Source of the DNA: Solirubrobacteraceae bacterium
Lineage (GTDB): Bacteria > Actinomycetota > Thermoleophilia > Solirubrobacterales > Solirubrobacteraceae
Direction: 5' to 3'
Assembly: GCA_025451035.1 (NCBI GenBank)
Contig: JANWLE010000010.1
Coordinates: 1 to 64,000 of the forward strand
DNA length: 64,000 nt
How positions within the stretch are numbered: position 1 is the first letter of the stretch; every line of letters starts with the position of its first letter. Positions 26,039 through 45,184 of the stretch are shown here, piece after piece. Made by a program: the position numbers and the translations under genes. Under the pieces are notes generated by a model. The model ran no database searches. It saw only the letters and a program-made list of their open reading frames with translations, and was not told the DNA's origin.

Positions 26039-26052
26039 TTAGGTATGCCTAA
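26039..26052. promoter_or_regulatory. Second TTAGG-type inverted repeat before the NRAMP gene
   Basis: TTAGGTATGCCTAA has the same layout as the site at 25171: half-site TTAGGN, two bases, NCCTAA. It lies 87 bp upstream of the favoured NRAMP start, the position expected for a metal-responsive repressor. Confidence 0.6.
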
Positions 26053-26138
26053 TGCGGGCCATAGAGCACCTGCCTGGTGAGGGCCGGACCCTCGTGGCAC
26101 TCTCACAGGTGAGTGACGTAGACCGGCTCGGCGGGCCT

Positions 26139-27560
26139 ATGAACGACCCCACTGCGATCGCCATGGCAGCGCGTGGATGGCGCCCGGGATGGACTCGCGC
26201 ACTGTGGGTACTCGGCCCGGGACTCATGGTGATGCTCGCAGACACAGATGCCGGCAGCGTCGTCACTGCCGCCCAGTCTGGAGCCAGCTGGGGCTATCGC
26301 CTGCTCCCACTCGAGCTGGTGCTGATACCGGTGCTATACCTGGTGATGGAGCTGACTGTCAGGCTCGGCATCACGACCGGCAAGGGGCACGCCGAGGCGA
26401 TCCGCGACCGGTTCGGCACGCGGTGGGCCGCTCTATCCGTCGGCACGCTGCTGCTGAGCGCCACCGGCGCGTTGATCACCGAGTTCGCGGGCATCGCCGG
26501 CGTCGGCGAGCTGGTCGGGCTGGCACCGGCGGTGACCGTTCCCCTCGCGGCCGCTTTCTTGATTGCCATCGTGCTCTGCCGGGGCTACCGTCGGGTCGAG
26601 CTGATCGGGCTGACGCTGGGAATGTTCGAGGTCGCGTTCGTCCTCGCCGCGGTGCTCGCCCGTCCCAAGGTCGGGGCCATAGCCGACTCGCTGTGGACAC
26701 ACCAGCCGGTTACCGACCACGGCTACCTGGCGCTCGTCGCAGCGAACGTCGGCGCTGTGGTGATGCCATGGATGATCTTCTGCCAGCAAGGAGCCGTGGT
26801 CGACAAGGGCCTGCGAGCGAGACACATTCGCCTCGCCCGCCTGGACACCGCTCTCGGGGCCGTACTGACGCAGCTGATAATGGCGGCCGTCCTGATCGTC
26901 ACCGCCGCGACCCTCTCCGGCCATGGCGCCGGGCGGCTCACCTCGGTTGGCGAGATCTCCACGGCGCTCACCCCATATCTCGGCGCCTTCGCGAGCCGCC
27001 TCACCTTCGCTTTGGGCATCGCCGGCGCGGCGCTGCTCGCAAGTATCGTCGTCTCGCTGGCCGCGGCGTGGGCGGTCGCCGAGGCTTTCGGCGCGCGCCG
27101 CAGTCTCAATGACGGCGTACGAGGAGCCCCTCTCTTCTACGGCCTTTATCTCACTTGCATCGCCGTTGGGGCAGGAATGGTTCTCGCCAGCAACTCGCTC
27201 ATCCGCCTGGCGATCGACGTGGAGATCCTCAACGCGTTGTTGCTGCCCTTGGTCGTCGGCCTGCTGCTCGCGCTCGCCTGGACCACCCTCCCTCATCCTC
27301 ACCGGCTTCGTCGCGGCGAGCGCGTGGTGCTCGCGGCCGTGCTTGGCACCCTGACCCTGGTCGGGCTCGGCTGGGCCACGGTCACGGTCCTACCAGGCTC
27401 CCCTCAAACGGCGTGCTGTGCCGCCCGCCAGAGCATGAGCACCGAGTCAGCGCGCGCGCGTCGAGGCGCGCGGATCGGCGCTCCAAGGTCGTCCCGGCTC
27501 GTCAGTCGGCCGCCGAGCGGCGTGTTGTTCGGCTCTGCCCTCGGGCTGGGGGGAAGTTAG
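26139..27560 (+). CDS. Divergent NRAMP-family divalent metal transporter
   Basis: A 473-residue membrane protein with about 11 helices in NRAMP order. In TM1 the canonical DPGN reads DAGS (LADTDAGSVVTAA): the metal-binding Asp is kept but Asn is Ser. In TM6 the usual MPHN reads MPWM (VVMPWMIFCQQGA): the Met is kept and the His is lost. These changes point to a distant subgroup, possibly with a different metal such as Mg2+ or Mn2+. The start at 26139 leaves the operator upstream; an earlier ATG at 26052 sits on it. The kinase gene starts two bases after its stop, which suggests an operon. Confidence 0.85.
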   Translation: MNDPTAIAMAARGWRPGWTRALWVLGPGLMVMLADTDAGSVVTAAQSGASWGYRLLPLELVLIPVLYLVMELTVRLGITTGKGHAEAIRDRFGTRWAALSVGTLLLSATGALITEFAGIAGVGELVGLAPAVTVPLAAAFLIAIVLCRGYRRVELIGLTLGMFEVAFVLAAVLARPKVGAIADSLWTHQPVTDHGYLALVAANVGAVVMPWMIFCQQGAVVDKGLRARHIRLARLDTALGAVLTQLIMAAVLIVTAATLSGHGAGRLTSVGEISTALTPYLGAFASRLTFALGIAGAALLASIVVSLAAAWAVAEAFGARRSLNDGVRGAPLFYGLYLTCIAVGAGMVLASNSLIRLAIDVEILNALLLPLVVGLLLALAWTTLPHPHRLRRGERVVLAAVLGTLTLVGLGWATVTVLPGSPQTACCAARQSMSTESARARRGARIGAPRSSRLVSRPPSGVLFGSALGLGGS

Positions 27561-27561
27561 C

Positions 27562-29061
27562 GTGTCGGCATCCAACGACATAGTCGGCCCGGTCGCGAGG
27601 TTTGGTGAGCCGTGTGAGCCCGGTCTGCGAACGAAGCGCAGGTCGGTTACCGGACGAGACGCCAAGACAGCTGTTTTCGGTGCTCTCAGCAGGCAGCGGT
27701 TAGAGACGGCGAAGGCGCCACCGACCCTCCGGCGCCTGAAGCTCGCCGGCGCAGCCCTGCCGGTGCTCTTCATCCTCGCGCTGGAGCTGATCCGCCTGAC
27801 GGTCATCGAGAAAGGCACCGCCGATTACAGCCCGCACATCGCTCTTGCGCTCGTCACGATCGTCGCGGTCGTCGCCTTCTCGTTCGTCATGTTCCATTTC
27901 ATAGCCCGTGCTCAGACAGAGACGGCCCAAGTGGTAGCGAACCTGCGGCTAAGGCAGCAGCAAGGCCACGCTTTCTACGACGTGCTGCTTCGCATCTCAA
28001 ACCAGGAGCCGCTTGCGGACATACTCGCCGCTGTAGCGCGACATGCCCGCAACCTGCTGGCAGGCGAGCACGCGGCCGTCTGCCTGAACGAGCTCACGGC
28101 CCGGTCCGTTCAGCTCGACCCCACACGGACGGGCGGCGTCCTTTGGCCTGGTGGTGTCTGCATCCTGCCCGACGCTAACGAGTCCTACGACCTCCACGAT
28201 GCTAGTTTTGTGCACTCTCTGCGCTCCTCTGCCGAGCTCAAGGAGAGCGTGCGCGTTCAGGTACAGAGCTCTGACAGAGCACTCGGCCATCTCTGGGTCG
28301 GCCGTAGTTCGGAGATCCCCTTCAGTGGGCGTGACCAGGCGTTTTTGAAAACTCTCTCTGGTTTCGCCTCGATCGCTGTAACCAGCGCCCGGATGCGCGA
28401 GAGCGAAAGGCAGGGCGCGATCCTCGCCGAGCGCGAGCGGCTCGCGTGTGAGCTGCACGACAGCCTGGCACAGGTTCTCGGCGCGGTGCACCTGCGGCTG
28501 CGTGGGCTCGCCTCGGGCGAAGGCGAGCTGGAACCGGAAATCGCGCTGGAGCTGATCGAGCTGGCCGATATCTGCGAGGAGGGCTACGGCGACGTGCGCG
28601 GCGCGATCCTCGACTTGCACGAGTCCAGCCGCGGCGAGGGTAACCTGCTCGACAGCCTGAGCGCCTACCTGGACAAGTACAGCAGGCAGTGCGGTATAGC
28701 GACCTCGCTGCAGTCAGACCTCGATCGTGACCTGACGCTTCCCCCGCGCAGCGAGGTGCAGATCATCAGGGTCATACAAGAGGCTCTCGCCAACGTCCGC
28801 AAGCACTCGGGCGCGGCCACGGCGACAGTCCGTCTCAGCGAGCATGAGGGCACGGTCATGTTCCTCGTCGAGGACGACGGCCTGGGCTTCGACATCACCC
28901 CAAAGCTGTTCGAGCAGGGCGGCTTCGGGCTGCATTCGATGCGTGAGCGCATGGAGATGATCGGCGGCACGCTGCTGACCGACTCCGCCGCCGGGCGCGG
29001 CACGCGCGTCGTCGGGCGGCTCCCCCACGCTTGCATGCAGGCACCGATCCGCTCAACCTAG
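27562..29061 (+). CDS. NarL-type sensor histidine kinase with GAF domain
   Basis: 499 residues from a GTG. Two hydrophobic helices around 56-70 and 90-112 anchor it, and a GAF-like sensor domain spans about 130-280. The HisKA_3 box is ERLACELHDSLAQVLG, with the phospho-His near residue 299. The ATPase domain has EALANVRKHSGA, VEDDGLGF and GGFGLHSMRERMEMIGG. It ends in IRST. No response regulator is adjacent. Its last 60 residues resemble the decayed kinase tail next to the LuxR-type regulator at 42625-43308, so that regulator is a candidate partner. Confidence 0.9.
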   Translation: MSASNDIVGPVARFGEPCEPGLRTKRRSVTGRDAKTAVFGALSRQRLETAKAPPTLRRLKLAGAALPVLFILALELIRLTVIEKGTADYSPHIALALVTIVAVVAFSFVMFHFIARAQTETAQVVANLRLRQQQGHAFYDVLLRISNQEPLADILAAVARHARNLLAGEHAAVCLNELTARSVQLDPTRTGGVLWPGGVCILPDANESYDLHDASFVHSLRSSAELKESVRVQVQSSDRALGHLWVGRSSEIPFSGRDQAFLKTLSGFASIAVTSARMRESERQGAILAERERLACELHDSLAQVLGAVHLRLRGLASGEGELEPEIALELIELADICEEGYGDVRGAILDLHESSRGEGNLLDSLSAYLDKYSRQCGIATSLQSDLDRDLTLPPRSEVQIIRVIQEALANVRKHSGAATATVRLSEHEGTVMFLVEDDGLGFDITPKLFEQGGFGLHSMRERMEMIGGTLLTDSAAGRGTRVVGRLPHACMQAPIRST

Positions 29062-29400: not shown

Positions 29401-29493
29401 GCGACCCCTACCCGACCTCCGCAATCGCCGCGCGCAGCTTCGCGACCCCGAAGCTCCCGCTACGGGCGACCCTGCCCCGGCTGCGCATCAAGC

Positions 29494-30888
29494 TCACGTC
29501 CCGAAGAGCTTTCGCGCGGCCTGCGCGAGCTGGCCGCCCCCATCGGAGCTGAGAGCAGACCGGGGCGCGTGAAGGATGTCCGCCACGAGACGGTTGCTCA
29601 TCTGCTCGATCAGCGAACGCTCCTTCGCCGGCAGGTCGGGCAGACGCCGAAACAGCCACTCCAGCTCGCTTCGGCGCTGCTCGTCCGCGGCCTGACCGAT
29701 CGCCTGTATGGCTGGCACCGAGTTTCGCGAGCGCAGCCAGCGCAGGTATGTGTCAGCGGACTGCTCCGCGAGCCGCTCGAGCTGCCCGCGCAGCGGATCC
29801 TCGGACTCCACGCCCTTCTCCGCAGCCAGATCGTCGGCCGAGACGAAGCGCTCGCCGAGCGCAGCCTGAAGCGCCTTGGGAACCGCGCTGGGCGAGGACA
29901 TGTCGACGACGACCGCGCCGGTCTCGACCAGCCGGCGAGCGTCCCGCTCGCCGGGCGACCAGACTCCACCGAGGGCAACGATCACGCCCGCGAGCGGCGG
30001 CACGACATCCTCGCCTTCGAACGGGATTACGCTCGCACCGACCTCGCGCGAGAGAGCGAGCGCTCGCTCGCTGGTCCTGCTCGTGATGATCACCTCGGCG
30101 CCCCGCCTCGCCGCGGCAAACGCTGCGAGGCGTCCCATCACCCCGGCGCCGACTACCAGGATCCGCTGGCCCTCGGGCTCCCCGCAGTACTCTTGCATGC
30201 GCTCGAGCGCGACGTCGGCCAGCGATCGCGTCGCGCCGCCGAAACGGCTGCGAGCACGCCTGCCAGTTTGAAGCGCGATCTGGAACAAGCGGTCCAGCGC
30301 GGGATCAAGCGGACGCTCGCCGCGGCGGCGCTCAAGCGTCTCGCGCAGCTGGTGCAGCAGCTGGTTCTCGCACAACACGGCGCTGTCCAGCCCGCAGGCG
30401 ACCGCGATCAGGTGTCGCGCCGCCTCGATGCCGTCGAAACGCTGCGATCCCGAGGGTGGCTGCGGTAGCGTCCGCTCCGCGAGCTCGTCGAGCGCGACGT
30501 ACAGCTCCACGCGATGACAGGTGTGGACGACGATGGTCGCCTCGCTGAGTTGCAACTCGGCCAGTTCGCCCGCGAACGCCTCGCGCGCGGGCGCCGGTAC
30601 ACGGGGTGCCTGCGCCACGAGCGCGGTTAGCGAAGGCAGCGGCGGGCAGTCTTCAGCCCGTTCGTGGACCGCGGCGGCGGGGGCCTCGATGCCCCGTCCT
30701 TGCGGCACCGGTAGCAGGTCGAGAATCGCCGAGCGGGCGAAGCGGCGGTGACCGCCTGGCGTCGTGAAGGTCCTGACATCCCCATTCGCGCTCCAGCGGC
30801 GCAGCGTGGCCGGCGAGACGCCGATGAGCGCACAGGCCTCCTGCAGGGTCAGCCACTCCTCGTAAGCCGGCATGTGAACGGTGCTCAT
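29494..30888 (-). CDS. hemA: HTH-domain fused to glutamyl-tRNA reductase
   Basis: 464 residues in two parts. Residues 8-60 are a BldC/MerR-like helix-turn-helix: EWLTLQEACALIGVSPATLRR, WSANGDV, then PGGHRRFARSAILDLL. From about residue 85 it is a glutamyl-tRNA reductase, the first committed enzyme of C5 heme synthesis. It has the catalytic Cys in VVHTCHRVELYV, the LDSAVLCENQLL helix, the NADPH loop VVGAGVMGRLAAFAA and the C-terminal dimerisation helices. The first HemA strand with GxxHRxAP is missing and appears replaced by the HTH. Its ATG overlaps the upstream cytochrome stop (ATGA), so it is the last gene of the cytochrome operon. It may be a paralogue dedicated to, or regulating, this cluster. 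Confidence 0.85.
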   Translation of the reverse strand: MSTVHMPAYEEWLTLQEACALIGVSPATLRRWSANGDVRTFTTPGGHRRFARSAILDLLPVPQGRGIEAPAAAVHERAEDCPPLPSLTALVAQAPRVPAPAREAFAGELAELQLSEATIVVHTCHRVELYVALDELAERTLPQPPSGSQRFDGIEAARHLIAVACGLDSAVLCENQLLHQLRETLERRRGERPLDPALDRLFQIALQTGRRARSRFGGATRSLADVALERMQEYCGEPEGQRILVVGAGVMGRLAAFAAARRGAEVIITSRTSERALALSREVGASVIPFEGEDVVPPLAGVIVALGGVWSPGERDARRLVETGAVVVDMSSPSAVPKALQAALGERFVSADDLAAEKGVESEDPLRGQLERLAEQSADTYLRWLRSRNSVPAIQAIGQAADEQRRSELEWLFRRLPDLPAKERSLIEQMSNRLVADILHAPRSALSSDGGGQLAQAARKLFGT

Positions 30889-32480
30889 AATCCTCGCTCC
30901 TTGCTGCTCAGGACCTGCTGCTTCTTGTGACATCTGGCGCAGAAGGCCTCTTGGTGGCAGTACGCGCAGGCCTGTATGCCGGCCCTTTCGATCACCTGCG
31001 GGTGGTGGAAGAGCATTTCTTCGTGTCTGACCTGCGTCGCGCCGGAGCTGTGGCAGTTCGTGCAGAAACTGCTTTTCGCCGCGGACGGTTCGAGCGCGGC
31101 GGGCGAGCGCGCGTGTTCGAAGACCCACAACTTGGACAGATGGTCCGCCGGGGGGCTGAGCAGCGACACGCTGGATATCGTCGACCCTGACTGCGGGAAG
31201 GTATGGCACGTAGTGCATTCCCAGGGCACGGTGTTGCTCAACAGACGCCCGTCGGAGCCAACCTTGAAATGGGCGCCATCGTGGCAGCGGAAACAGCCGG
31301 GGCCCGTCTGGTGGCCGAGGTCGTTGGGATAGTCGGCCGCGATCATGTTCATTTCAGGATCCGCGACAAGCGGGTAGATCACCTTCATCTCGTCGACCGC
31401 CTGCTTGACATCCCCCTGGTGGCTTCCGGCGAGCAGCGGATACTTCTGCGCGTACGTACCGCGGATACCTTCGATCGCCTTGTCCGCCTCCCCAGTCGAG
31501 CGGTAGCGCTTGCCGAGGAGGGCTACCGCTTCACGCTTGATGTAGGGCAGTGACCGGCTGATCTTGTCTTCGGAGATCGCGGTGTCGAGCGCTTCGCCGG
31601 GGCTCGGGAATTCGTGTCCGACGCGGTTGTGGCAGCTGATGCAGTCGATCTGCCTCACAGTCTCGGTCTGCTTGATCCGGTTGATCTCCGGCAGCACGTC
31701 GCTTGAGACGCCGACCTGCGAGCGGCCAATGAACTGTTCGCTGCGGCCATCCTGGTAGACGACCCGCATCCAGTCGATTTTCTGAGCGTCCTTTTCGGGA
31801 CTCGCATATTCGACCTTCACCCCGATGTGCCAGTGCGCGCCGCGGCTTGCCGTGCCTTCGCCGAGGCGCCTGGGGCGCACGACGACCGCCACCATCTGCC
31901 GCGTATTTGCCTCATCTTCGCGGTAGTAGGAGTGCATCACGAGCTTGATCGGGCCGTTTTCGTTGGTGAGAGAGCTCAGCGAATGGCATTTCATGCAGGT
32001 GTCCTGGGTGGACGGAAGCAGGTTGTGGTCAGGCGGCGGGATCGGCTTCGGATAGGTGCCGGCGACCGTCTGAAGGAGCTGGCTCGCGCCTTTGATCTTC
32101 GATTCGACGAAGCCGGCGACGCCAGGCCCGACATGGCACTGCCCGCAGGCCACGTTGCGGTGGACCGACAGCCTGTTCGCCTGCGCCTCCGGTGCCATCG
32201 TGTGGCAGCGCGAGCAGAAGCCAGATGTCTCGCTCCACTTCTGAAAGGTGCTGCCGCCCACCACCGCTACCGAGCAGAAGCCGCCGACGGCGACCAGCGA
32301 GACGAGAAAGCCGCGGCCGCTGCGCGGCGGGTGGGCCCGCCGTAGGATCCCGGCAAGGAGCTCGCCAGCGCGGCTGTGGCGCCGCCCTGCGGGCTGGCCC
32401 GAGGCACGTGGCCTACCTCTTGGCGCCGGCAAGGCCGAGTCCGATCTGTTTGAGGTCTTCGTCCATTTCCGGCGGGTCAA
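30885..32480 (-). CDS. NapC/NirT-like nonaheme membrane cytochrome c
   Basis: 531 residues, one N-terminal membrane helix (about residues 58-78: FLVSLVAVGGFCSVAVVGG) and nine CxxCH heme motifs: CSRCH, CGQCH, CMKCH, CISCH, CFRCH, CTTCH, CTNCH, CAYCH and CARCH. The first two, with CHTMAPEAQANRLSVH between them, are typical of NapC/CymA quinol dehydrogenases. Such proteins take electrons from menaquinol and pass them outward. No ATG fits; TTG at 32480 or 32432 are candidates, overlapping the TlpA-like gene. It is the natural electron entry point for the three hexaheme cytochromes in the same run. Confidence 0.9.
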   Translation of the reverse strand: MTRRKWTKTSNRSDSALPAPRGRPRASGQPAGRRHSRAGELLAGILRRAHPPRSGRGFLVSLVAVGGFCSVAVVGGSTFQKWSETSGFCSRCHTMAPEAQANRLSVHRNVACGQCHVGPGVAGFVESKIKGASQLLQTVAGTYPKPIPPPDHNLLPSTQDTCMKCHSLSSLTNENGPIKLVMHSYYREDEANTRQMVAVVVRPRRLGEGTASRGAHWHIGVKVEYASPEKDAQKIDWMRVVYQDGRSEQFIGRSQVGVSSDVLPEINRIKQTETVRQIDCISCHNRVGHEFPSPGEALDTAISEDKISRSLPYIKREAVALLGKRYRSTGEADKAIEGIRGTYAQKYPLLAGSHQGDVKQAVDEMKVIYPLVADPEMNMIAADYPNDLGHQTGPGCFRCHDGAHFKVGSDGRLLSNTVPWECTTCHTFPQSGSTISSVSLLSPPADHLSKLWVFEHARSPAALEPSAAKSSFCTNCHSSGATQVRHEEMLFHHPQVIERAGIQACAYCHQEAFCARCHKKQQVLSSKERGL

Positions 32481-33012
32481 GCGAGGAGATCCTGATCTCC
32501 CGCAGGATCCCGGAGCTATCTATGAAGAAATGCGAGGGGATGCCTACGATCCGGTACTTGGAGGCGATCTTCCCGTCGGCGTCCTCGACCTTTGTGTAGG
32601 TGAGGCCGACCCGCTGCGCGTATTCCTCGATGTCAGACTTGCTGTCCTGGACGAACACCGCCAGTACAACCAGGCCGCGCGCACGGTACTTCGCGTAGGC
32701 GGCCTCGATGTCCGGATTCTCCGCCCGGCACGGCTGACACCACGGGGCTCCGAAGGTCAGCCAGACGGGATGGCCCCGCAACCCGCTCAGCCTCGCCCTC
32801 GCGCCTTCGATCGTAGTCGCGGTGAAGTCCGGCGCCGGCTTTCCGACTTCAGGCGCGGGGCCAGTCGCGCCGCCCGAGAGGACGACCGAGGTGAAGCTAC
32901 CGCCCGACGCCGGCCGGTTCGTCATATACGAGGCCGCGAGGACGGCGGCGGCGGTCACGCCCATCACCATGAGGTTCCGGGAACGACCCAGGCCATTGCG
33001 TCGACTAGCCAT
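32413..33012 (-). CDS. TlpA/ResA-like thioredoxin for cytochrome c maturation
   Basis: 199 residues: an N-terminal membrane anchor (LMVMGVTAAAVLAASYM) then a thioredoxin fold with active site APWCQPCRAENP and cis-Pro region VGIPSHFFIDSSG. ResA-type proteins keep apocytochrome CxxCH cysteines reduced outside the membrane. The ATG at 33012 overlaps the ccsA stop by 8 bp. Part of the System II set ccdA-resB-ccsA-tlpA. Confidence 0.9.
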   Translation of the reverse strand: MASRRNGLGRSRNLMVMGVTAAAVLAASYMTNRPASGGSFTSVVLSGGATGPAPEVGKPAPDFTATTIEGARARLSGLRGHPVWLTFGAPWCQPCRAENPDIEAAYAKYRARGLVVLAVFVQDSKSDIEEYAQRVGLTYTKVEDADGKIASKYRIVGIPSHFFIDSSGILREIRISSLDPPEMDEDLKQIGLGLAGAKR

Positions 33013-33883
33013 AGCTGTGCAGACCCCCGAAGAAGAGGTTTCCGAAATAGGTGAACAGCGCTGCCGCGAACACGAGCGTGAGCAGCAACGCGGCTCGCTG
33101 GCCACGCCAACCGCGGGCGCTGCGTGCGTGGAGGTAGGCCAGGCACACGATCCAGGTGACCAGCGACGCTGACTCCTTGGGATCCCAGCTCCAGTACCTG
33201 CCCCACGCGATATCAGCCCAGATCGCCCCGAGCACAATCGTCAAGGTCAAAAACGGGAAGCCGATCAATGTTGCCCTATAGGACAGGTCATCCAGCAACT
33301 CGCGCTTGGGCAGCAGCCGCCGCCCGCCGCCGCTCTGCACCAGGTACAGCAGCGCGGCGGCGAACCCGACCGCGAACGCGCCGTAGGCGATCACCGCGGT
33401 CGCTACGTGGACCGTTAGAAGCAGGTTGTTCTGGAGCGCGGGGACCAGCGGCGTGGCCGTGCTCGGGACCGTCGTCGAGTAGAGGAGCATCCCCAGCGCG
33501 ACCGGCAGCACGATCACGCCGATCGTCCACTGGCGATAGCGCCGCAGGAAATAGGCATTCACGCTCAGGGCGCCCCAGGCGAAGGCGACGGAGAACTCGT
33601 ACATGTTCGCGAACGGGCCATGACCGGTCGCCCCCCAGCGCAGGGCGAGCGCCGCGGAGAGGAAGCCGAACGCCAGCCACGAGGTCAGCGTGCCGAAGAC
33701 GGCTACGCCGCGAGCAACTTCGCCGTCTTGCACAGCGGTGATCTTTGCGCCGACGGTGTCCGCCGCCACCATCACGCGAGCCTGAAAGATGCGGTCTGAC
33801 GCGAAGGCCAGCACGTAGCAGACCAGCGCCAGCACCACCGCGATCATGCCAGCGAAGACACAGTACTGAGACAGGCTAAGCAT
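33005..33883 (-). CDS. ccsA: Cytochrome c synthase subunit CcsA/ResC
   Basis: 292 residues, about eight membrane helices. The heme-handling motif is WGRYWSWDPKESASLVTW, the WGxxWxWD signature of the CcsA/CcmF family, with further conserved His in VHVATAVIAYG and LHARS. It works with ResB/Ccs1 to deliver heme and attach it to apocytochromes. Overlaps resB by 8 bp. Confidence 0.95.
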   Translation of the reverse strand: MLSLSQYCVFAGMIAVVLALVCYVLAFASDRIFQARVMVAADTVGAKITAVQDGEVARGVAVFGTLTSWLAFGFLSAALALRWGATGHGPFANMYEFSVAFAWGALSVNAYFLRRYRQWTIGVIVLPVALGMLLYSTTVPSTATPLVPALQNNLLLTVHVATAVIAYGAFAVGFAAALLYLVQSGGGRRLLPKRELLDDLSYRATLIGFPFLTLTIVLGAIWADIAWGRYWSWDPKESASLVTWIVCLAYLHARSARGWRGQRAALLLTLVFAAALFTYFGNLFFGGLHSYG

Positions 33884-35354
33884 CGGCTCGGCCTCCTTTC
33901 TTGGTTGCAGGCCCCGGGCCCACGGAGCGCCGCAGGTCCGCGGCGAGACGCTCGAACTGAGCGGCGAATCCAGCGTGGTGTCGCTCGATCGCCGCGACTG
34001 CGACCTCGCTGCCGCCGGGCCCGGGACAGATCACGGCCCTGACCCGCCGGTGCGGGAACAGGAAGACCATGAACAGTCCGAGCACGAGCAGCGCCGAGCC
34101 GATCCAGACGATCGTCGACCCGGGGTCTTGGGCGACGATCAGACCGGTGAACTCGCGTTCGCGCACAAACGTGAAGCCCACGCCGCCGATGCTCGCCGGC
34201 TTGCCCGGCGAGAGCGTCTGGATCCCAACCGGCGTGTTGCTCCCGGACCTGTATACCTCGAGCTGCGTGTCACCGACAGGGATGCGCGGGTCGACTTCAC
34301 CCGAGGCTGGGGAGACGACGAACACGCTCAGCCCCTGCTGAGGAAGCAAGAAGCGCCCGACGCGATCCTTTTCGTTCTGTGACACATACAGCAGCGCGAC
34401 GCCTTGGTTGAAGAGGACACGCCCGGTGGCGGTCCTAGCCTGCATCACGACCGCCGGCCCGAAGAACGACTGGTAGAAGGTGATGCCGTCGTAGCGCACC
34501 GGATGGTTGACGCGGTCATCTTGCGTCTTGACCGGGACCCCGCCCTTGTACAAGACGAGCCGGCTTTCGTAGCTTCGGGGCGGACCGCTGGGGTAGTAGG
34601 AGTCCGCGAACGACTTGGCTTCGACCGCCAGGCCCGTTCCATGCCCCACGTTCACCCTGCTGCCGACGGGAACCGCAACCGATTCGTCGCGAAACCCACT
34701 GGTCGCAGTGATCAGCGCGCCGACGAGGATGAGCACGAAGCTCAGGTGAATGAAGATCCTACCGAACGGCGCCCAGCGGAAGCGGTCGGCGCAGACGTGG
34801 ACCCGCTCGCCGTCTCGCTTGACGCTAACCCGGAAGTAGTTTTTGCGAAAGGCGCTGCGCAGCGCGGCCAACGCGACCGCGGGATCCTTCTCCGATGTGA
34901 TCTTCGCCCGTTGTGGCGCCCGCTCGAAGAAAGCTTCGGTCATCACCATGCGCGGCCTGGTCGCCGTTCTCCACAATCCAGCTGAGCGGCGCAGCGAGCA
35001 CGTGATGAGGCTGGCCGAAAGGAGCAGCAGCGTCCCCTTGAACCAGACCGAGGAGAACACGGAGAAGAGCCCGAGTATGTCCAGGACCTCGGTCCACCCT
35101 CCATACTTCGGGCGCACTGCTTCCAGCCATTCCGCGTAGGCGGCCGGGTTGCCCCTGACCGCGGCGGGGGCCTGGCTGAGCAGCGTGCCGACGAGGGTGA
35201 GCAGGCCGAGCACCAGCAAAAGCATCAGCGCCACCCGCATCGAGGTCAGCTTGCGCAAGATCCAGGCGTGCGGCGCGACCCCCGCGCGGCGAAGCTCTCT
35301 GGCGGGCCGAGGTGGACGTCCGGAACGTGAGGCTGTGCTGACGGTGGAGCTCAT
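33876..35354 (-). CDS. resB: Cytochrome c synthase subunit ResB/Ccs1
   Basis: 492 residues with the ResB plan: membrane helices near 40-60, 100-118, 190-210 and a last one near 420-440, with a large outside domain between the third and fourth. Segments LLLVLGLLTLVGTLLSQ and FGRIFIHLSFVLILVGALI are typical. Partner of CcsA in System II. A 50-residue cytoplasmic tail follows the last helix. Confidence 0.92.
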   Translation of the reverse strand: MSSTVSTASRSGRPPRPARELRRAGVAPHAWILRKLTSMRVALMLLLVLGLLTLVGTLLSQAPAAVRGNPAAYAEWLEAVRPKYGGWTEVLDILGLFSVFSSVWFKGTLLLLSASLITCSLRRSAGLWRTATRPRMVMTEAFFERAPQRAKITSEKDPAVALAALRSAFRKNYFRVSVKRDGERVHVCADRFRWAPFGRIFIHLSFVLILVGALITATSGFRDESVAVPVGSRVNVGHGTGLAVEAKSFADSYYPSGPPRSYESRLVLYKGGVPVKTQDDRVNHPVRYDGITFYQSFFGPAVVMQARTATGRVLFNQGVALLYVSQNEKDRVGRFLLPQQGLSVFVVSPASGEVDPRIPVGDTQLEVYRSGSNTPVGIQTLSPGKPASIGGVGFTFVREREFTGLIVAQDPGSTIVWIGSALLVLGLFMVFLFPHRRVRAVICPGPGGSEVAVAAIERHHAGFAAQFERLAADLRRSVGPGPATKKGGRADA

Positions 35355-35364
35355 GTGCGCTCGC

Positions 35365-36102
35365 TCATAGTTCGACCAGCGGGAGCGCGCCGGATAGCCG
35401 CCCGAAGGTGTTCGTGATCATCAAAAAGCCGATCCCGACGAGCATCGCCCCGGTCACGACGCCGACCGCGGTGTCGTGCCTGCCTAGCCAGCCGAGCCGG
35501 TCGCTCACCGCGGTGACACCGAGCGCGACCAGCACGAACGGGATGCCCAATCCGATTGCGTACACGAGCAGCAGCGCGACGCCCTGGACGACGCTTGCGC
35601 TGACCGAGGCCATCCCGATGATCCCTCCCAGGATCGGCCCGATGCAGGGGGTCCAGCCGGCGGAGAAGATGACGCCGAGCAAGGCCGAGCGCCCGTAGCG
35701 GCGAGCGCCGGACACGTTCGTTCTCCCATCGCTGGCGGCGCCTGCGGCAGCACCGACCGGCAGCCGCTTCTCACGGTAAAGAGCCGAGATGTTGATCACG
35801 CGGGCAACGTGCAGGCCCATGAAGACGAGGATCGCGCCGCCAAGCTGTCGAATCAGGCCGACGTAATCGCGAAACAGGTAGCCGATCAACCCGACAGACG
35901 CCCACATCGCGACGAAGACGACCGAGAAGCCGGCGACGAACGCGAGCGCATGAAGCAAGGCGACGCGCCGCGACGCCTTGGAGCGGTCGGGGCTCGAGGC
36001 GACCATGTAGCTGACGTAGCCGGGAACGAGCGGCAGGCAGCACGGTGAGGCGAAGGACACGATTCCGGCGAGGAACGCAACCGGAAGGCCGACCGCGTTC
36101 AT
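35365..36102 (-). CDS. ccdA: CcdA/DsbD-type transmembrane thiol reductase
   Basis: 245 residues, six helices. The two redox cysteines are in FASPCCLPLVPGYVSYM (helix 1) and GWTPCIGPILGGI (helix 4), the paired PCxxP/TPC layout of CcdA. It carries reducing power from cytoplasmic thioredoxin to the TlpA/ResA-like protein for heme attachment. Start overlaps the TPR gene stop by 4 bp. Confidence 0.93.
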   Translation of the reverse strand: MNAVGLPVAFLAGIVSFASPCCLPLVPGYVSYMVASSPDRSKASRRVALLHALAFVAGFSVVFVAMWASVGLIGYLFRDYVGLIRQLGGAILVFMGLHVARVINISALYREKRLPVGAAAGAASDGRTNVSGARRYGRSALLGVIFSAGWTPCIGPILGGIIGMASVSASVVQGVALLLVYAIGLGIPFVLVALGVTAVSDRLGWLGRHDTAVGVVTGAMLVGIGFLMITNTFGRLSGALPLVEL

Positions 36103-36890
36103 TTTTTCTCAAGCCCCTTTATGTGCATCGCGATCGTCTTGGCCACAGCTGACTTCGGCGCGAGCTTCAGGACCTCATCCCAGTACTTCTTCGCGCTAGC
36201 CATATCGGGCGGATCTTTGCTGACATACAAAAAGCCGAGGTCGTAATACGCTTCGACGTTCTTGGGGTCGGCCGCGATGACTCGCTGCCAGTCGCTGCGA
36301 GCGTCGGCGGCGTCGCCGATGTTGAACTCCGCCGCGCCGAGCGCCAGGCGCGCCGTCACGTTCTTCGGGTCGGCTTGCACAGCACGCTTCATCCACCCGC
36401 CAGCGCTGTTGTATTCATGGGCTTCGAAGAAGGTGTCTCCGAGCGCGATCAGCGTCTTGGCGTCCTTCGGTCGCGCTTTGAGTCTTTCCATCAACTGCGA
36501 GACACGTGCCCGCTGCGCGGAGCTGAGGCCGTGCTGTTCGCTAGAGCCTCCCCGAGGACTGGCCTTGCCGCTGGAGCTCCCGCCCAGGTCGTAGACGCCG
36601 ACGACGACGCCCGCGCTCACAGCAAGAGCGATCGCGCCGATGACGACTCGCAGCAGCGGAGCCGCCCGCCTTCCCGCCGAGTGAGAGCTCGCCGCGTACG
36701 CATCTTTGACCGCGTCCATCTGTTCTGTCGCCCAGCCGCGCGCACTCTCCGGGGCGCCCTCGAGGAAGTTCACGAGCTCCCTGTGGGCCTGCTTGGCTTC
36801 CTCGGCACTCTCACCTGGCCTGGCGCCGACGGCGCCGGGGTCAAGTCGGTCGCTGTTCGCGTGTCGGCTGGGTTTTGTGGAGGGCGTCAT
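36099..36890 (-). CDS. Membrane-anchored TPR protein
   Basis: 263 residues. A membrane helix near 84-103 is followed by about three TPR units (KTLIALGDTFFEAHEYNSAG, VTARLALGAAEFNIGDAADA, VEAYYDLGFLYVSKDPPDMA). The cytoplasmic N-terminus is charged. TPR proteins of this kind (NrfG/CcmI-like) hold apocytochromes during heme attachment. Position between the cytochrome genes and ccdA supports that role. Confidence 0.85.
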   Translation of the reverse strand: MTPSTKPSRHANSDRLDPGAVGARPGESAEEAKQAHRELVNFLEGAPESARGWATEQMDAVKDAYAASSHSAGRRAAPLLRVVIGAIALAVSAGVVVGVYDLGGSSSGKASPRGGSSEQHGLSSAQRARVSQLMERLKARPKDAKTLIALGDTFFEAHEYNSAGGWMKRAVQADPKNVTARLALGAAEFNIGDAADARSDWQRVIAADPKNVEAYYDLGFLYVSKDPPDMASAKKYWDEVLKLAPKSAVAKTIAMHIKGLEKK

Positions 36891-37312: not shown

Positions 37313-38314
37313 TTACTTGTTGTGGCACATCTGGCAAACGCCCCTGTTGTCGGCTCTCAGGAGGAAGCTGTTGGAGCCGGCCGATTTGCCGTCGGGGTAG
37401 TTGACGGTAGTTGCGTAGCCTCCCATGGCCGCATCCGAGCCATGCGCGACGTGACACTGGATGCAGCTGGGCTTGGTCTTGTTGGGAGTTTCTTTTTCGA
37501 GTTTTTCGTATTCTTCCTGCGTGTAGAGGCTGCGGTGGCGGTAGGCGAACACCGCGTCTCCCGTGAAGGTGTTGCCGCTTCCGCTTTCACCCAGCAGGCG
37601 CGTGTGACAGGTCGCGCACCACGAGGAGATCTGGTAGCGGAACTGCGGGTTCTTGGTTTCCCAGCTCTGCCAGTAGTTGGTCGTCGTGTATTCCTTTTCT
37701 GTGACGTCAGGTATCTTCACTTCCGTCTTGACCCCCGATTCCTGCGGGATCGGTCTCAGGATCCGGTAGTTGCCGTTGCCGTGCGGGTCATGGCAGGAGC
37801 CGCAGCGCAGTGAAACTTCCTTGCCGTTGTTCGCGGTGGCGCTGAATGCTCCGTTGCCCCAGGCGACCTGCATGGAAGAGTCGACCGTGTGGGCCGAGGT
37901 CGTCGCAGCACCGGTGCCCAATGTCGGGATTTCCCCGCTCACCAGCCTTCCGGATACGTAGTTGCCTTTTGGTTTGCTCGAGTCGATCAGAGCGAACTTG
38001 AAGCCGCCGCCGCGCAGAGCGCTGGCGGCACCAGTCCGTTCATGGCTCGAGTAGCCGGCGCCATCCGCGACGTCGAGGCTCGAGCCGCCGGCCCCGGAGC
38101 CGTGGCAGGTGTAGCAGAGCGCTTCCTCTGAGGATTCCTTCAGCAGATAGGGCGCCTGGGCGGTGTGAGCCCGATGGCAGGCGGCACAGCGATCCGTGGT
38201 GGCTCCCATACCCATCGCATGTGGGCCATTGTCAGCCCAAGCGGCGGCGGGAGCGACAACCAGCAGCAAGGACATGCAACCAAGCGTGAAGAGCGAGACC
38301 GCCAGCCTTCTCAT
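37313..38314 (-). CDS. OmcS-like hexaheme cytochrome c, copy 1
   Basis: 333 residues: signal peptide (MRRLAVSLFTLGCMSLLLVV, cleavage near AWA), then six CxxCH motifs with distinctive surroundings: CAACHRAH, LCYTCHG, CGSCHDPHGNGNYR, WCATCHTR, CIQCHVAHGS and CQMCHNK at the very C-terminus. The same order and context (CxxCHxxH, CxxCHDPHG, WCxxCHT, CxxCHxAH, terminal CxxCH) is what I recall of Geobacter OmcS, whose subunits stack into heme filaments. AGGAGG precedes the ATG at 38314. Exported, probably cell-surface or extracellular. Most downstream of three tandem copies. Confidence 0.88.
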   Translation of the reverse strand: MRRLAVSLFTLGCMSLLLVVAPAAAWADNGPHAMGMGATTDRCAACHRAHTAQAPYLLKESSEEALCYTCHGSGAGGSSLDVADGAGYSSHERTGAASALRGGGFKFALIDSSKPKGNYVSGRLVSGEIPTLGTGAATTSAHTVDSSMQVAWGNGAFSATANNGKEVSLRCGSCHDPHGNGNYRILRPIPQESGVKTEVKIPDVTEKEYTTTNYWQSWETKNPQFRYQISSWCATCHTRLLGESGSGNTFTGDAVFAYRHRSLYTQEEYEKLEKETPNKTKPSCIQCHVAHGSDAAMGGYATTVNYPDGKSAGSNSFLLRADNRGVCQMCHNK

Positions 38315-40002
38315 TCTCAGACCTCCTGGGCAAAGCATCTGCTTTGGCGTTGTCGATTATCAACACGTGATTAACGTGCCTAGCAGGGACAAGCGCAATC
38401 CGCCGGGTGGTATGTATTGGGTAGAGGTGGCCCTGTACAGGTCCGCCGGCATAGCCCATGGGACATATGGCTCTGCTTGGACCGTGCCTGGGACGACATC
38501 TGGATCCAGGGTCATTCGTAGTGGCACATCCGACAAGTGCCTTTGTCGTCGACTCGCAGCAGGCGGCTGTCTGAGGCCGCGGGCACCGCGTTAGGACTGT
38601 GCACTGCCATTGACGACGCTTCTTCGACGCTGGCGTTGGAGCCGTGTGCGACGTGACACTGGATACAGTTCGCCGAGCCCTGCGCCTTCTGGTCGGAGAT
38701 GTGGCGGTCGGTAAAGACCGCGTCGCCGCTTTCGGTGTAGGAAGTGTCGCTGAGGTAACGCGTATGGCAGGTGGCGCACCACCCCGAGATGTCTTCGATG
38801 AAGCCCGGCGCGTACTGGTCCTGGACATCCCAATAGTTATCGGTCGTGTAGACCTTCGCGGTGGCGTCAGGGACGTACACGCCGCTCGCCCCGGATTCCA
38901 GCGGGATCGGCCTCAGGATCCGGTAGTTGCCGTTGCCGTGCGGGTCATGGCAGGAGCCGCAGCTCAGCGAGATCGTCTTGCCATAGTCCACTTCCGTGCT
39001 GACCGGCCCGCTGCCCCACGCTGTCTGGCTCGAGGAGTCCACCGAATGGGCTGAGGTGATCGCTGCCCCTTCCGCCGTCACCGGGACCAGGCCGCCAGGG
39101 TCCGATCCCCCGCTCTGCTGACCCGAAGGATGGGCCGAGTCGATCAGCGCGTACTTGAAGCCGCCGCCACGCAGTGGGAGGGGTTTACCGCTGCGCAGCG
39201 CGTTCGCGTAGCCGACGCCGTCCTTCACGTCGGTGCTGGCGCCGGCCGCCGCGGCGCCATGGCAGGTGTAGCAGAGAGCTTCACCGGCCTGCTTGAGCAG
39301 GTACGGCGACTGCGCAGTGTGGACCCGATGGCACAGCGCGCAGGTGTCCGGGGTGGCGCCCGCACCCATGATGTGGGGGCCGTTGTCGGCCGCGGACCGC
39401 GTGGCTGTGGCAAACAGCAACACAACACAGCCCAGCGCCAAAAGCGCCAGGTTGCGTGCGTTTTCTTTTGCTCTCGTACTGTCCAATATGCTGACGCTTC
39501 GTTTTCGTGGCCTTCCTCGCTTGCCCGCTGTCACTTGTTGTGGCACATCTGACAGACACCCATGTTGTCGATTCTCAAAAGCCGGCTGTCGGGACCAGCG
39601 GGAGTGCTCACCGCGGAGCTGCCATCGGGGTTGGCGATAGCAGCTGAGTAGGTTCCCATGCTCGCATTCGAGCCGTGCGCCACATGGCACTGGATGCAGG
39701 TCGGCGTGCTCTGTGAGGTCTCGTTGGTGCGGTGACGGTAAGTGAACACCTTGTCGCCGCTGCTGGTTGTGGCGCTGTTGTGACCAGCCAAATAGCGCGT
39801 GTGGCAGGTGGCGCACCAGGACGAGATCTTCTCCACGAATTCGGGCGCGGATTCATCCTCGACCTCCCAGTAGTTTTCGGTCGTGTAGACCTTGGCGGTG
39901 GTGTCGCCGATCGACACGCCCGTCGTGGCCCCTGATTCCTGCGGGATCGGTCTCAGGATCCGGTAGTTGCCGTTGCCGTGCGGGTCATGGCAGGAGCCGC
40001 AG
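37744..40002. repeat. 62-bp near-identical blocks in the three cytochrome genes
   Basis: Blocks at 37744-37805, 38901-38962 and 39941-40002 encode the third heme motif and the following ILRPIP stretch. The first and third are identical over 62 bp; the middle one differs at one base. Flanking sequence is much more diverged, which suggests gene conversion or strong selection. Confidence 0.75.
38512..39486 (-). CDS. OmcS-like hexaheme cytochrome c, copy 2
   Basis: 324 residues. A hydrophobic signal (NLALLALGCVVLLFATATRS) leads to ADNGPHIMGAG and six motifs: CALCHRVH, LCYTCHG, CGSCHDPHGN, WCATCHTR, CIQCHVAHGS and CRMCHYE at the end. No ATG is present before the signal; TTG at 39486 is the best start. 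The gap to copy 1 (38315-38511) has no gene. Sequence between motifs 3 and 4 is shorter in shared elements than copies 1 and 3, so it is the most diverged subunit. Confidence 0.87.
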   Translation of the reverse strand: MDSTRAKENARNLALLALGCVVLLFATATRSAADNGPHIMGAGATPDTCALCHRVHTAQSPYLLKQAGEALCYTCHGAAAAGASTDVKDGVGYANALRSGKPLPLRGGGFKYALIDSAHPSGQQSGGSDPGGLVPVTAEGAAITSAHSVDSSSQTAWGSGPVSTEVDYGKTISLSCGSCHDPHGNGNYRILRPIPLESGASGVYVPDATAKVYTTDNYWDVQDQYAPGFIEDISGWCATCHTRYLSDTSYTESGDAVFTDRHISDQKAQGSANCIQCHVAHGSNASVEEASSMAVHSPNAVPAASDSRLLRVDDKGTCRMCHYE

Positions 40003-40526
40003 CGCAGGGCGACCTGCTTGCCGTAACTCGCTTCGCTGCCGTTGATCGGCCCGTTGCCCCATGCCATCTGGCTCGAAGAGTCCACCGAGTGGGCCGAGGT
40101 GACCGCTGCGCCGCTTGCCAGCGTCGGGATTTCGCCTACGTATCCGTTGCCCGACGGGTGAGCCGAGTCGATCAGCGCGTACTTGAAGCCGCCGCCACGC
40201 AGCGCCATCTTCGCACCGGTACGCCCGGCGCCCGAATAGCCTACGCCGTCCGCGACATCGAGATTGGAGCCTGTCCCCGAGGTGCCGTGGCAGGTGTAGC
40301 AGAGGGCTTCCTCAGGCTGCTTGAGCAGATAGGGGGCCTGCGCGGTGTGGGCGCGATGGCACATCGCGCAGCGGTCTGTGGTGGCTCCCATGCCCATGAT
40401 GTGCGGACCGTTGTCGGCCGCAGCATCACAGCTGAAATACAACGACACGACACAGGCCGCGGCGAAGACCGCCGCTCCTCTCATCATCCGTATCGCCTGC
40501 ATAGGCGTCCAGCCCCTAGCTCTCAA
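39531..40526 (-). CDS. OmcS-like hexaheme cytochrome c, copy 3
   Basis: 331 residues from 40526, or 323 from a second ATG at 40502. Signal peptide (AAVFAAACVVSLYFSCDAAA) then six motifs: CAMCHRAH, LCYTCHG, CGSCHDPHGN, WCATCHTR, CIQCHVAHGS and terminal CQMCHNK. First cytochrome transcribed, 12 bp after the NHL gene, so propeller and cytochromes are co-expressed. Very close to copy 1 in the CHDPHGNGNYRILRPIP block, including identical DNA. Confidence 0.88.
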   Translation of the reverse strand: MRARGWTPMQAIRMMRGAAVFAAACVVSLYFSCDAAADNGPHIMGMGATTDRCAMCHRAHTAQAPYLLKQPEEALCYTCHGTSGTGSNLDVADGVGYSGAGRTGAKMALRGGGFKYALIDSAHPSGNGYVGEIPTLASGAAVTSAHSVDSSSQMAWGNGPINGSEASYGKQVALRCGSCHDPHGNGNYRILRPIPQESGATTGVSIGDTTAKVYTTENYWEVEDESAPEFVEKISSWCATCHTRYLAGHNSATTSSGDKVFTYRHRTNETSQSTPTCIQCHVAHGSNASMGTYSAAIANPDGSSAVSTPAGPDSRLLRIDNMGVCQMCHNK

Positions 40527-40538
40527 TGCATTCGGCTC

Positions 40539-41609
40539 TCAGTATTCCCAGACCTGGACCCTGCCGTTTTCACGATCGGTGATGTAGATTCGCCCGCCTT
40601 CGATTGCGATCCCGTTCGGGTACTGGAACTGCCCGTTGCCGAGCCCTTCCCCGCCGAACGATCCGATATACCGCGGCACTTCCGCGACGCGGCTTGAGAG
40701 TTGATAGACATCGACCACCTGGGCGGTCGCGTCGACCACATAGAGCCGGTTGTGGCTGTCGATCGCCACCCCGCGCGGGAGGTTGAGGTCTCCTTCTCCG
40801 ACCCCGCGCGCGATCGAGCTGACGAGCCTGCCGGACGGGTCGAGGATCGCCAGTCTGCCGTCATTGCTGTCGGCCACGTAGACATCGCGGTGCGAGTCGA
40901 CCGCCAGGCCATTGGGGAACCAGAACATGCCGGCAGAACCGACCTTGCGCAGCGACTTGCTGCCGCCGGCGCCAATAACCAGCACGCGGTGGTTGCGGCG
41001 GCTACCACCAACGTCGGTCATGTAGAGGTCCCCTTCGGCGCCAAAAGTCAACCCAAGCGGCTGGGAGCCATTTCCTAGGGCGCCGGAGGGCCGCATGGAG
41101 CGCAGATACTTGCCGTTGCTGGCGTAGACGTCGATGTCTTCGCGCAGGCGGTCGCTGACGTAGACCTGTTCGGTGCGTGGGTCAACCGCTACATAGACCG
41201 GCAAATGCCAGTTGTGGTTGCCGTTGACCGGGGGCGGCGCGAGTGAGCCAACCCGTTTGCCGGAACGATCGAAGACCCGCACCAGACGCGGCCCTTCGCT
41301 TTCGGTCACATAGATCCTTTCGCCGGATGGGCTGACCGCCACACCCATCGGCTGACTAACCCCATAGATGCTGGATACGTAGTGGGGGAGCGTGGACGAG
41401 AGGCTCGGAAGCGGGCTGTGTCCAGAGAGCGCGCGGACGATGAGCAGGGCGAGGACAGCGAGGACGACGAGAATCGCCGACAGCGCGGCGATCTTTTGCC
41501 TTAGGCGCTTGCGCTCCTCCTGATCACTGGGCTGCTCTGCCTCGCCGCCCGCACCACGGTCAAGCGCCACCTGCAGGCGCAGCGGAAAGCTGTCGTCCCG
41601 GGGTGGCAT
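40539..41609 (-). CDS. Membrane-anchored NHL-repeat beta-propeller
   Basis: 356 residues: cytoplasmic N-terminus, one membrane helix (about 39-61, LSAILVVLAVLALLIVRAL), then a six-bladed NHL propeller on the outside. Blades carry the usual repeat (PMGVAVSPSGERIYVTE, PVYVAVDPRTEQVYVSD, PLGLTFGAEGDLYMTD, PNGLAVDSHRDVYVADS, PRGVAIDSHNRLYVVD, PNGIAIEGGRIYITD). Directly upstream of the three hexaheme cytochromes. An NHL gene next to omcS is also what I remember from Geobacter. Likely an assembly or docking factor for the cytochromes. Confidence 0.9.
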   Translation of the reverse strand: MPPRDDSFPLRLQVALDRGAGGEAEQPSDQEERKRLRQKIAALSAILVVLAVLALLIVRALSGHSPLPSLSSTLPHYVSSIYGVSQPMGVAVSPSGERIYVTESEGPRLVRVFDRSGKRVGSLAPPPVNGNHNWHLPVYVAVDPRTEQVYVSDRLREDIDVYASNGKYLRSMRPSGALGNGSQPLGLTFGAEGDLYMTDVGGSRRNHRVLVIGAGGSKSLRKVGSAGMFWFPNGLAVDSHRDVYVADSNDGRLAILDPSGRLVSSIARGVGEGDLNLPRGVAIDSHNRLYVVDATAQVVDVYQLSSRVAEVPRYIGSFGGEGLGNGQFQYPNGIAIEGGRIYITDRENGRVQVWEY

Positions 41610-41610
41610 C

Positions 41611-42561
41611 TCAGCCGGCCTTCACGCTGACGCCCAGCCTGGCCAGGCCGTTGCGGGCGTTGAAGTTCTTGGGGTCGGCCGCGAGGACCTTCTGGTACCA
41701 GCGGGCCGCGCGCGCACGTTGCGACTGGGTCTCTGCGGCCATGCCAAGCCCGAGCATCGCTTCGATCGCGGCCGACCCGGAGGTCAGGTGTTCGAGTCGC
41801 GCCGTGCCGTCCGCCGGTTTCTTTTCGCAGAGCTGCACCATCGCCTCGGCGTATTCAGACTGGGGTCCGCGGTGCTGGGCTTGGTAGGCCCTCGCCAACT
41901 GCTCATAGGGTTCGCACCAGCCGCCCGGCACGTACAGCACTGCCTGCCTGAGCGCGTTGACCGCCGTTTGGTAGGAGCCTGTTTCGATGGAGGCCCTCCC
42001 CAGCAGATACCACGCATCGGCGTCCGTGGGTTCTATCTTGAGCGCCTTCCTCACTTCGTGAATGGCCGCACTCGCCTGGTGCTGTTTGAGCATCACCACG
42101 CTCAAGCCGTAGTAGGCGGTCTCTAGCTGCGGATTGACGCGGGAGTACTCTTTTCCTGTCGCATTGCCGATCAGCGTCCGGAAAGACCGCCTCGCTTCGG
42201 CGAGGTCTCCCTCTTGAGAGAGGATTTCCGCGCGCCCGAGCAGCGCCGTGGCGTCGTCCGATTCAACCTTGAGGACCTCCTTGTACTGTTCGAGCGCCTG
42301 GTCGGGCTTCTTCGCGGCCCTGTAGACGTTCGCCAGCTCCAGCCGCAACTCGACGTTCGTCGGGTTTGAGCGAACCGCGCGTTCCCCGGCCGTTATCTGT
42401 CTTTCCACCAGCGATGGACCCGAATCAGGCTGATTGAGATAGTAGGCGATCGCCACGGCAGCACTGCCGAGCACCACAGCCTTGAGGCCGATCCTGATCA
42501 AACGGTCGAGGGTTTGCTCTTGCACACCGAGATTGTCGCGGCTTGCCGACCCCCGACTCAA
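41611..42561 (-). CDS. Membrane-anchored TPR protein, upstream copy
   Basis: 316 residues with an N-terminal membrane helix (IGLKAVVLGSAAVAIAYYL) and about six TPR units (VELRLELANVYRAAKKPDQA, ATALLGRAEILSQEGDLAEA, ADAWYLLGRASIETGSYQTA, YEQLARAYQAQH). TTG at 42561 or GTG at 42525 may start it. First structural gene of the cytochrome run, one base before the NHL gene. Probably a scaffold for apocytochrome or filament assembly. Confidence 0.85.
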   Translation of the reverse strand: MSRGSASRDNLGVQEQTLDRLIRIGLKAVVLGSAAVAIAYYLNQPDSGPSLVERQITAGERAVRSNPTNVELRLELANVYRAAKKPDQALEQYKEVLKVESDDATALLGRAEILSQEGDLAEARRSFRTLIGNATGKEYSRVNPQLETAYYGLSVVMLKQHQASAAIHEVRKALKIEPTDADAWYLLGRASIETGSYQTAVNALRQAVLYVPGGWCEPYEQLARAYQAQHRGPQSEYAEAMVQLCEKKPADGTARLEHLTSGSAAIEAMLGLGMAAETQSQRARAARWYQKVLAADPKNFNARNGLARLGVSVKAG

Positions 42562-42607: not shown

Positions 42608-42633
42608 AGCGCCTATATCCCCCGTTAGGCGCT
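42608..42633 (-). terminator. Hairpin at the end of the LuxR-type regulator gene
   Basis: AGCGCCTA (42608-42615) pairs with TAGGCGCT (42626-42633) around a 10-base loop, overlapping the stop codon region of the regulator. No T-run; may reduce read-through from the regulator into the cytochrome run. Confidence 0.4.
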
Positions 42634-43308
42634 CTCGCCTCGTCCCAAACCATGACGGACGATGTACGCGGCGGCCTGTGTGCGATTTTCGAGCTGAAGC
42701 TTCTCGAGGGAGTTGTGGATGTGATTCTTCACAGTCCCCTCCGTGATGAAAAGGCTCGTGGCGATCTCCTTGTTGCTGAGTCCGTCAGCCACCAGTTGCA
42801 GGACCTCCAGCTCACGCCGCGTGAGCGTCGGCGCATCGGACGGGGGGACCGGCAGGCTCGCCAGCGCGGTGCCGTCGCGGATCTGCCCGAGCAGCCGCTT
42901 GGCTATTGCGGGCGACAGGGGAGATTCGTCGCGCATAACCGCCCTAATGAGAGAGAAGAGTTCCGCGGGGCGGAGGTTCTTGAGCAGATATCCATGCGCG
43001 CCGAAGCGGATCGCGTCGAAGAGATGGTCATCGGAGTCTGACACCGTCAGCATGACGACCTTGGCGTTCGGGACCTGTTCACAAATAAGGCGCGTCCCCT
43101 CAACGCCATCCATGACCGGCATCTCAATGTCCATGACTACCACGTCGGGCTTCAGCGCACGTGCCTTCTCGACCGCCTCTAGGCCGTTCTCGGCTTCGCC
43201 GACGACTTCCAGATCTTCCTGTGTTCCAATGAGCTCGGCTATCGCCGTGCGGAAGAGCGCCGTGTCGTCGGCGAGCAGGATGCGCGTGGTGCTGGTCGGC
43301 GACTGCAC
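42625..43308 (-). CDS. NarL/LuxR-type response regulator
   Basis: 227 residues. The receiver domain has ILLADDTALF, phospho-acceptor Asp60 in VVVMDIEMPVMDG and LTVSDSDDHLFDAI. The output domain has LTRRELEVLQLVADGLSNKEIATSLFITEGTVKNHIHNSLEKL, a clear LuxR HTH. It lies directly upstream of, and co-directional with, the cytochrome run, so it likely controls that run. The gene one base upstream is only a decayed kinase tail, so its partner is probably elsewhere; the NarL-type kinase at 27562 is the best candidate. Confidence 0.93.
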   Translation of the reverse strand: MQSPTSTTRILLADDTALFRTAIAELIGTQEDLEVVGEAENGLEAVEKARALKPDVVVMDIEMPVMDGVEGTRLICEQVPNAKVVMLTVSDSDDHLFDAIRFGAHGYLLKNLRPAELFSLIRAVMRDESPLSPAIAKRLLGQIRDGTALASLPVPPSDAPTLTRRELEVLQLVADGLSNKEIATSLFITEGTVKNHIHNSLEKLQLENRTQAAAYIVRHGLGRGESA

Positions 43309-45182: not shown

Positions 45183-45184
45183 CG

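Follow-up and report, generated by a model that had tools for sequence, protein, structure and literature searches.

BirA, NadR and PutA are enzyme-regulators ("trigger enzymes") in which a DNA-binding domain is fused to a metabolic enzyme, and we know of none among them that is built on glutamyl-tRNA reductase (GluTR, HemA) or reports on heme synthesis. In most bacteria, GluTR catalyzes the committed step of tetrapyrrole synthesis, which is under tight control. Controls of GluTR found in the literature are post-translational, for example by GBP and FLU in plants (PMC6597238, PMC4726326) and by HemX in S. aureus (PMC5801465). Here we describe HTH-HemA, a gene in a 64,000-nt stretch of a Solirubrobacteraceae genome (contig JANWLE010000010.1, positions 1 to 64,000; hereafter the window) that joins a helix-turn-helix (HTH) domain to a GluTR. 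Like the trigger enzymes, the fusion is an enzyme with its own DNA-binding domain that could report the status of its pathway, a resemblance of anatomy only. Enzyme-HTH fusions are already known as a kind, whereas no description of an HTH-GluTR fusion was found in the open-licence literature.

HTH-HemA is an in-frame fusion conserved at the end of a cytochrome operon

A single minus-strand frame (30888..29494) of 464 amino acids links a winged HTH to a full-length, very divergent GluTR. It starts with ATG behind an AAGGAG ribosome-binding site and shares 4 bp with the gene upstream. An earlier note made from the sequence had proposed a BldC/MerR-like HTH fused in frame to HemA, and the coordinates, the frame and the Pfam domains bear this out. 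The BldC/MerR-type winged HTH occupies residues 12-58 (30715..30855), where HTH_17 scores 40 bits against a cut-off of 27 and phmmer matches BldC (6ama/6amk). It is followed by a linker (residues 61-88; 30625..30708) whose length is constant in three species and whose sequence is free to vary, a remnant of strand 1 of HemA with its GxxH(K/R)xAP motif, collinear though degenerate (residues 89-103; 30580..30624), the catalytic GlutR_N domain (residues 106-214; 30247..30573; 73.7 bits), the Shikimate_DH/NADPH domain (residues 235-355) and the GlutR_dimer domain (residues 370-463; 29500..29781; 66.6 bits), all on the minus strand. All four Pfam scores exceed their cut-offs, and the order of GlutR_N, NADPH and GlutR_dimer domains is that of HemA. 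A HemA-only isoform made from a conserved internal start looks unlikely, as P0001 has no ATG between residues 6 and 231 and the single GTG candidate (V61) is Ala in one of the relatives described below (L034).

The same fused gene is present in two more Solirubrobacteraceae metagenome-assembled genomes (MAGs), on JADGPK010000013.1 (L033, genome G022) and JASHYF010000133.1 (L034, genome G023). These fusions are 73-74% identical to the window copy, and the only gap in the alignment of 465 columns is terminal. Because two independent MAGs carry the same architecture, the fusion is not a chimera, and the frame of the HTH, which the earlier note had wanted checked, is the same in independently assembled sequences. 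For the window copy paired with each of these relatives, the ratio of nonsynonymous to synonymous substitution rates (dN/dS) is 0.15-0.16 in the HTH, 0.17-0.34 in the GluTR domains and 1.2-1.6 in the linker. The closer pair, L033 and L034, gives a less clear picture (HTH 0.27, GluTR 0.37-0.65, linker 0.83), and its dS varies along the gene. Within the fusion, conservation is highest in the HTH, and these ratios indicate that both halves are under purifying selection. The linker, with its kept length and unkept sequence, behaves as expected of a flexible tether. Between the window's genome (G000) and G022, identity is 74% for the fused copies and 73% for the canonical HemAs. Since the two kinds of HemA are conserved to the same degree and the HTH is conserved best, neither half of the fusion is decaying; judged by this comparison, the fused copy is currently not decaying relative to the housekeeping HemA. 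For L033 and L034, dS is 0.40 in the HTH and 0.15 in GlutR_N, a difference that hints at recombination between lineages.

HTH-HemA is the last gene of its operon, as the earlier note had recognized, and shares a 4-bp ATGA overlap with the gene of a NapC/NrfH-like 9-heme cytochrome (30885..32480, minus strand) in all three genomes. The fusion is found in 3 of the 146 family genomes, all from uncultured bacteria of one genus, and the NapC-like gene in exactly the same three; the co-occurrence with multiheme cytochromes that the note suggested looking for is thus observed. In samples of the class (399 genomes) and the phylum (296), no fusion surfaced with profile A1 among the matches listed at E <= 1e-28. 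A separate scan of genome contigs detects close relatives only, and fusions may exist in other, distant phyla. No fusion was found in 72,556 plasmid records.

Comparison of the two halves with canonical HemA and BldC

The fusion shares with GluTR (HemA; M. kandleri 1GPJ, Arabidopsis 5YJL) the three-domain layout, the catalytic Cys and His, the NADPH loop and the dimerization domain, whereas its N-terminal HTH, its degenerate strand-1 motif and its substitutions at three invariant positions set it apart from canonical HemA. Nineteen of the 22 columns invariant across 62 canonical HemAs are retained in all three fusions, including T123, C124, R126, E128, Y130, S169, E174 and Q180 of GlutR_N, the NADPH-loop glycines and R271, and H159 (canonical H100) is retained as well. 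In the catalytic motif TCHRVE (30505..30522; canonical TCNRTE) the Asn is changed to His. The earlier note was right that the catalytic Cys (TCHR) and the NADPH loop remain: TCHR is invariant, and the glycine loop (GAGVMG in the window, residues 247-252; 30133..30150) is present as GAG(VM/VI)G in all three fusions. Its further claim that the HTH replaces the first strand of HemA does not hold, as strand 1 is present in register and only the GxxH(K/R)xAP motif has degenerated; residues 89-103 (ALVAQAxxVPxxARE) align without gaps to the canonical VLGISHKTAPVALRE. The stretch following strand 1 and another further on are both shorter in the fusion than in canonical HemA. From the retained residues we infer that the fusion may catalyze the glutamyl-tRNA reductase reaction.

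Identity between the fusion and the HemA of the same genome is 24-25%, and the score against the NCBIfam hemA equivalog TIGR01035 is 144.3 bits, under the 209.6 cut-off. The closest solved relatives of the enzyme body in sequence searches are the Arabidopsis and M. kandleri GluTRs. AlphaFold gave no usable model on the three-row alignment (predicted local distance difference test, pLDDT, of 43). When viral HemAs were added to the alignment, a medium-confidence model (pLDDT 64) with a recognizable GluTR fold was obtained, and its top fold matches are the same two enzymes (1gpj, E 3e-15). The HTH and strand 1 still have low confidence in this model, partly because the viral N-termini are misaligned onto the HTH, and we therefore make no claim on HTH placement. 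Viral contigs (L082-L087; IMG/VR, 50-271 kb) encode HemA-like proteins of 321-393 amino acids with STCNRTE intact; the GluTR dimerization domain is shortened or missing in L083, L084 and L087.

The window's genome encodes a separate canonical HemA elsewhere, with ccm genes and a siroheme-synthase-like gene upstream of it (ccmC by family assignment, the others by eye). The second canonical hemA that the earlier note proposed to look for thus exists, and the fusion is not the sole HemA of its genome. In the HemA tree, the HTH-HemA clade and the divergent HemAs from family f49 fall on the same side (99/97); long-branch attraction is likely, and therefore no donor is claimed. The f49 HemAs (L063, L064 and L067; same phylum) form a divergent group without the GxxH His and without an HTH, and TCHR instead of TCNR is seen in L067.

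The fusion HTH aligns to Streptomyces BldC (6ama, 6amk) and to the HTHs of cobalamin regulators. BldC makes its specific base contact with Arg30, touches the backbone with Trp31, Thr27, Thr29 and Lys33, docks its wing with His46, Arg47 and Arg48, and forms a head-to-tail dimer through Leu43 (PMC5859096). The alignment to 6ama gives the fusion a winged HTH with the base-reading Arg30 and the HRR of the wing: the equivalents of Arg30, Trp31, Thr27 and the GGHRR wing (His46, Arg47, Arg48) are invariant in the fusions, and Thr29 is replaced by Arg. Because the Arg, the Trp, the Thr27 equivalent and the wing are invariant, DNA contact by the fusion HTH is plausible. The score against the BldC family NF033787 is 45 bits, below the cut-off of 77. 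In MerR-type cobalamin regulators (CarH 5C8D; 8JBS), as in the fusion, a TPGGHR-type winged HTH precedes a ligand-binding body, but the C-terminal body of the CarH type binds B12, whereas that of the fusion is a GluTR.

Possible functions of the fusion

We tentatively favor the reading that HTH-HemA is an accessory, operon-dedicated GluTR that doubles as a transcription regulator in the manner of BirA and NadR. HTH-HemA would be made last in the operon, translationally coupled to the cytochromes. Its GluTR body would bind glutamyl-tRNA and NADPH and yield glutamate-1-semialdehyde, and more 5-aminolevulinic acid would thereby be supplied for the operon's roughly 27 hemes. The GluTR dimer would bind DNA via the N-terminal winged HTH on its flexible linker of fixed length, and the substrate- or heme-loaded state of the fusion would adjust transcription of the operon and/or of hemE-hemH-hemY (44052..47544, plus strand), which is divergent from the operon in the window and in G022, where a 99-bp exact contig overlap shows this arrangement. 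Starting from the observed architecture, conservation, linkage and retained residues, we infer the DNA binding, the regulatory target and the sensed signal of the fusion. A bifunctional GluTR that has its own operon and/or the divergent heme genes as DNA targets, and directly couples tRNA-Glu charging or heme-precursor status to multiheme cytochrome transcription, is possible but doubtful, and with equal reserve such coupling would make the fusion a trigger enzyme where tetrapyrrole synthesis begins. If true, a GluTR with its own DNA-binding domain would directly tie heme supply to multiheme cytochrome expression, in a way that can be tested, and the fusion could act as a sensor that responds to Glu-tRNA or heme status.

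Several observations weigh against an enzyme that is also a regulator. Of the strand-1 motif, the Pro, Arg and Glu are retained in the fusion, and the Gly, the motif His and the Ala are gone. Three residues invariant in the 62 canonical HemAs are replaced (G114 by Cys173, D245 by Gly301 and R284 by Ser/Ala334), and a very long branch, of 2.98 changes per site, separates the fusion from canonical HemA. On the HTH side, the position of BldC Lys26 has Ala, that of Lys33 has Ala, Asp or Lys, and that of Leu43 has Pro. The operon already carries its own two-component system, and phylogenetic footprinting found no conserved motif or operator in the intergenic region between hemE and the operon's response regulator gene. 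The earlier note had suggested that the gene could encode an enzyme reporting to DNA or a HemA-derived regulator; this fits the anatomy (DNA-contact and catalytic residues, separate HemA, operon linkage, selection), but no operator was found, and repeat and promoter scans gave nothing convincing. BldC stands alone as a protein of 68 residues and uses Leu43 to form head-to-tail oligomers, whereas the fusion has Pro at this position and its domain is joined to an enzyme. With Leu43 lost, BldC-style oligomerization is unsupported, and dimerization would more likely come through the GluTR body.

Some of these changes would also suit a HemA-derived transcription factor whose GluTR body makes no glutamate-1-semialdehyde but senses Glu-tRNA, NADPH or heme, with the HTH acting on the operon. 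The pathway is supplied by the canonical HemA, three canonical-invariant residues and the GxxH motif are altered, the fusion is far from canonical HemA on its very long branch, and no domain is better conserved than the HTH. We nevertheless regard this as somewhat unlikely, given that the catalytic Cys and His, other active-site residues and the NADPH loop are kept in three species and that conservation of the fused copy matches that of the canonical enzyme. It is unlikely, too, that the fusion is an accessory GluTR that merely provides extra 5-aminolevulinic acid for the cytochromes and whose HTH serves oligomerization, localization or turnover control: the retained active site, the location as last gene of an operon with high heme demand, the loss of BldC Lys26, Lys33 and Leu43 and the empty operator search all agree with such a role, but no change is seen in the base-reading Arg, the Trp or any part of the GGHRR wing, and dN/dS is lowest in the HTH, as expected if DNA contact matters. 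An assembly chimera, frameshift or decaying pseudogene, which MAG data and the strong divergence from HemA might suggest, is refuted by the three independent copies, as the fusion is gapless in three independently assembled species, under purifying selection and with a conserved 4-bp overlap.

Cys173 (window 30370-30372) takes the place of an invariant Gly beside the active-site Glu174. It is preceded by Cys165 (window 30394-30396), the second Cys common to all three fusions, and the two are a possible redox or heme-sensing site.

Neighboring genes

The gene order before HTH-HemA in all three genomes is TPR, CcdA, ResB, CcsA, ResA-like thioredoxin and NapC-like cytochrome. In the window these are, on the minus strand, the TPR protein (41611-42561), a CcdA/DsbD-like membrane protein (35368..36108; an open reading frame (ORF) with Pfam DsbD_TM in a relative), ResB (33876..35354), CcsA for system II cytochrome c assembly (33005..33883) and the ResA/TlpA-like thioredoxin (32413..33237 as the longest ORF, with the real start further downstream). 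Three 6-heme CxxCH cytochromes (37313..40526) and an NHL-type propeller (40539-41609) are also on the minus strand, and the propeller and TPR genes (40539..42561) mark the start of the structural genes. The NHL propeller and CxxCH cytochromes, which also precede HTH-HemA, are observed in two genomes, as the L034 contig begins at the TPR gene. The four main cytochromes of the window have 27 CxxCH motifs. The operon is headed by a NarL/LuxR-type response regulator (42625..43308, minus strand), and in G022 also by its histidine kinase (L080, 9732-11108); in the window a GAF/HisKA_3 histidine kinase (27562-29061) lies past the other end on the opposite strand. Together with an NRAMP transporter (26052-27560) it occupies 26052..29061 on the plus strand, and in L033 an NRAMP transporter follows HTH-HemA. 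Distant NapC-like homologues occur in another family (G173, G178); no HTH-HemA was seen by ORF starts in the stretches read there, the G178 contig being 4.6 kb.

HemE (UroD) was found in 8 of the 36 Solirubrobacteraceae genomes sampled (44052-45182 in G000, and 35 others). It was not found in several 96-99% complete genomes (e.g., G031, G035, G036 and G075), and HemA is present where searched, so heme synthesis may be patchy across the family. Just downstream of HTH-HemA, positions 29116-29424 of the window encode a short LysR-type HTH fragment of 102 amino acids that, by eye, resembles a truncated regulator.
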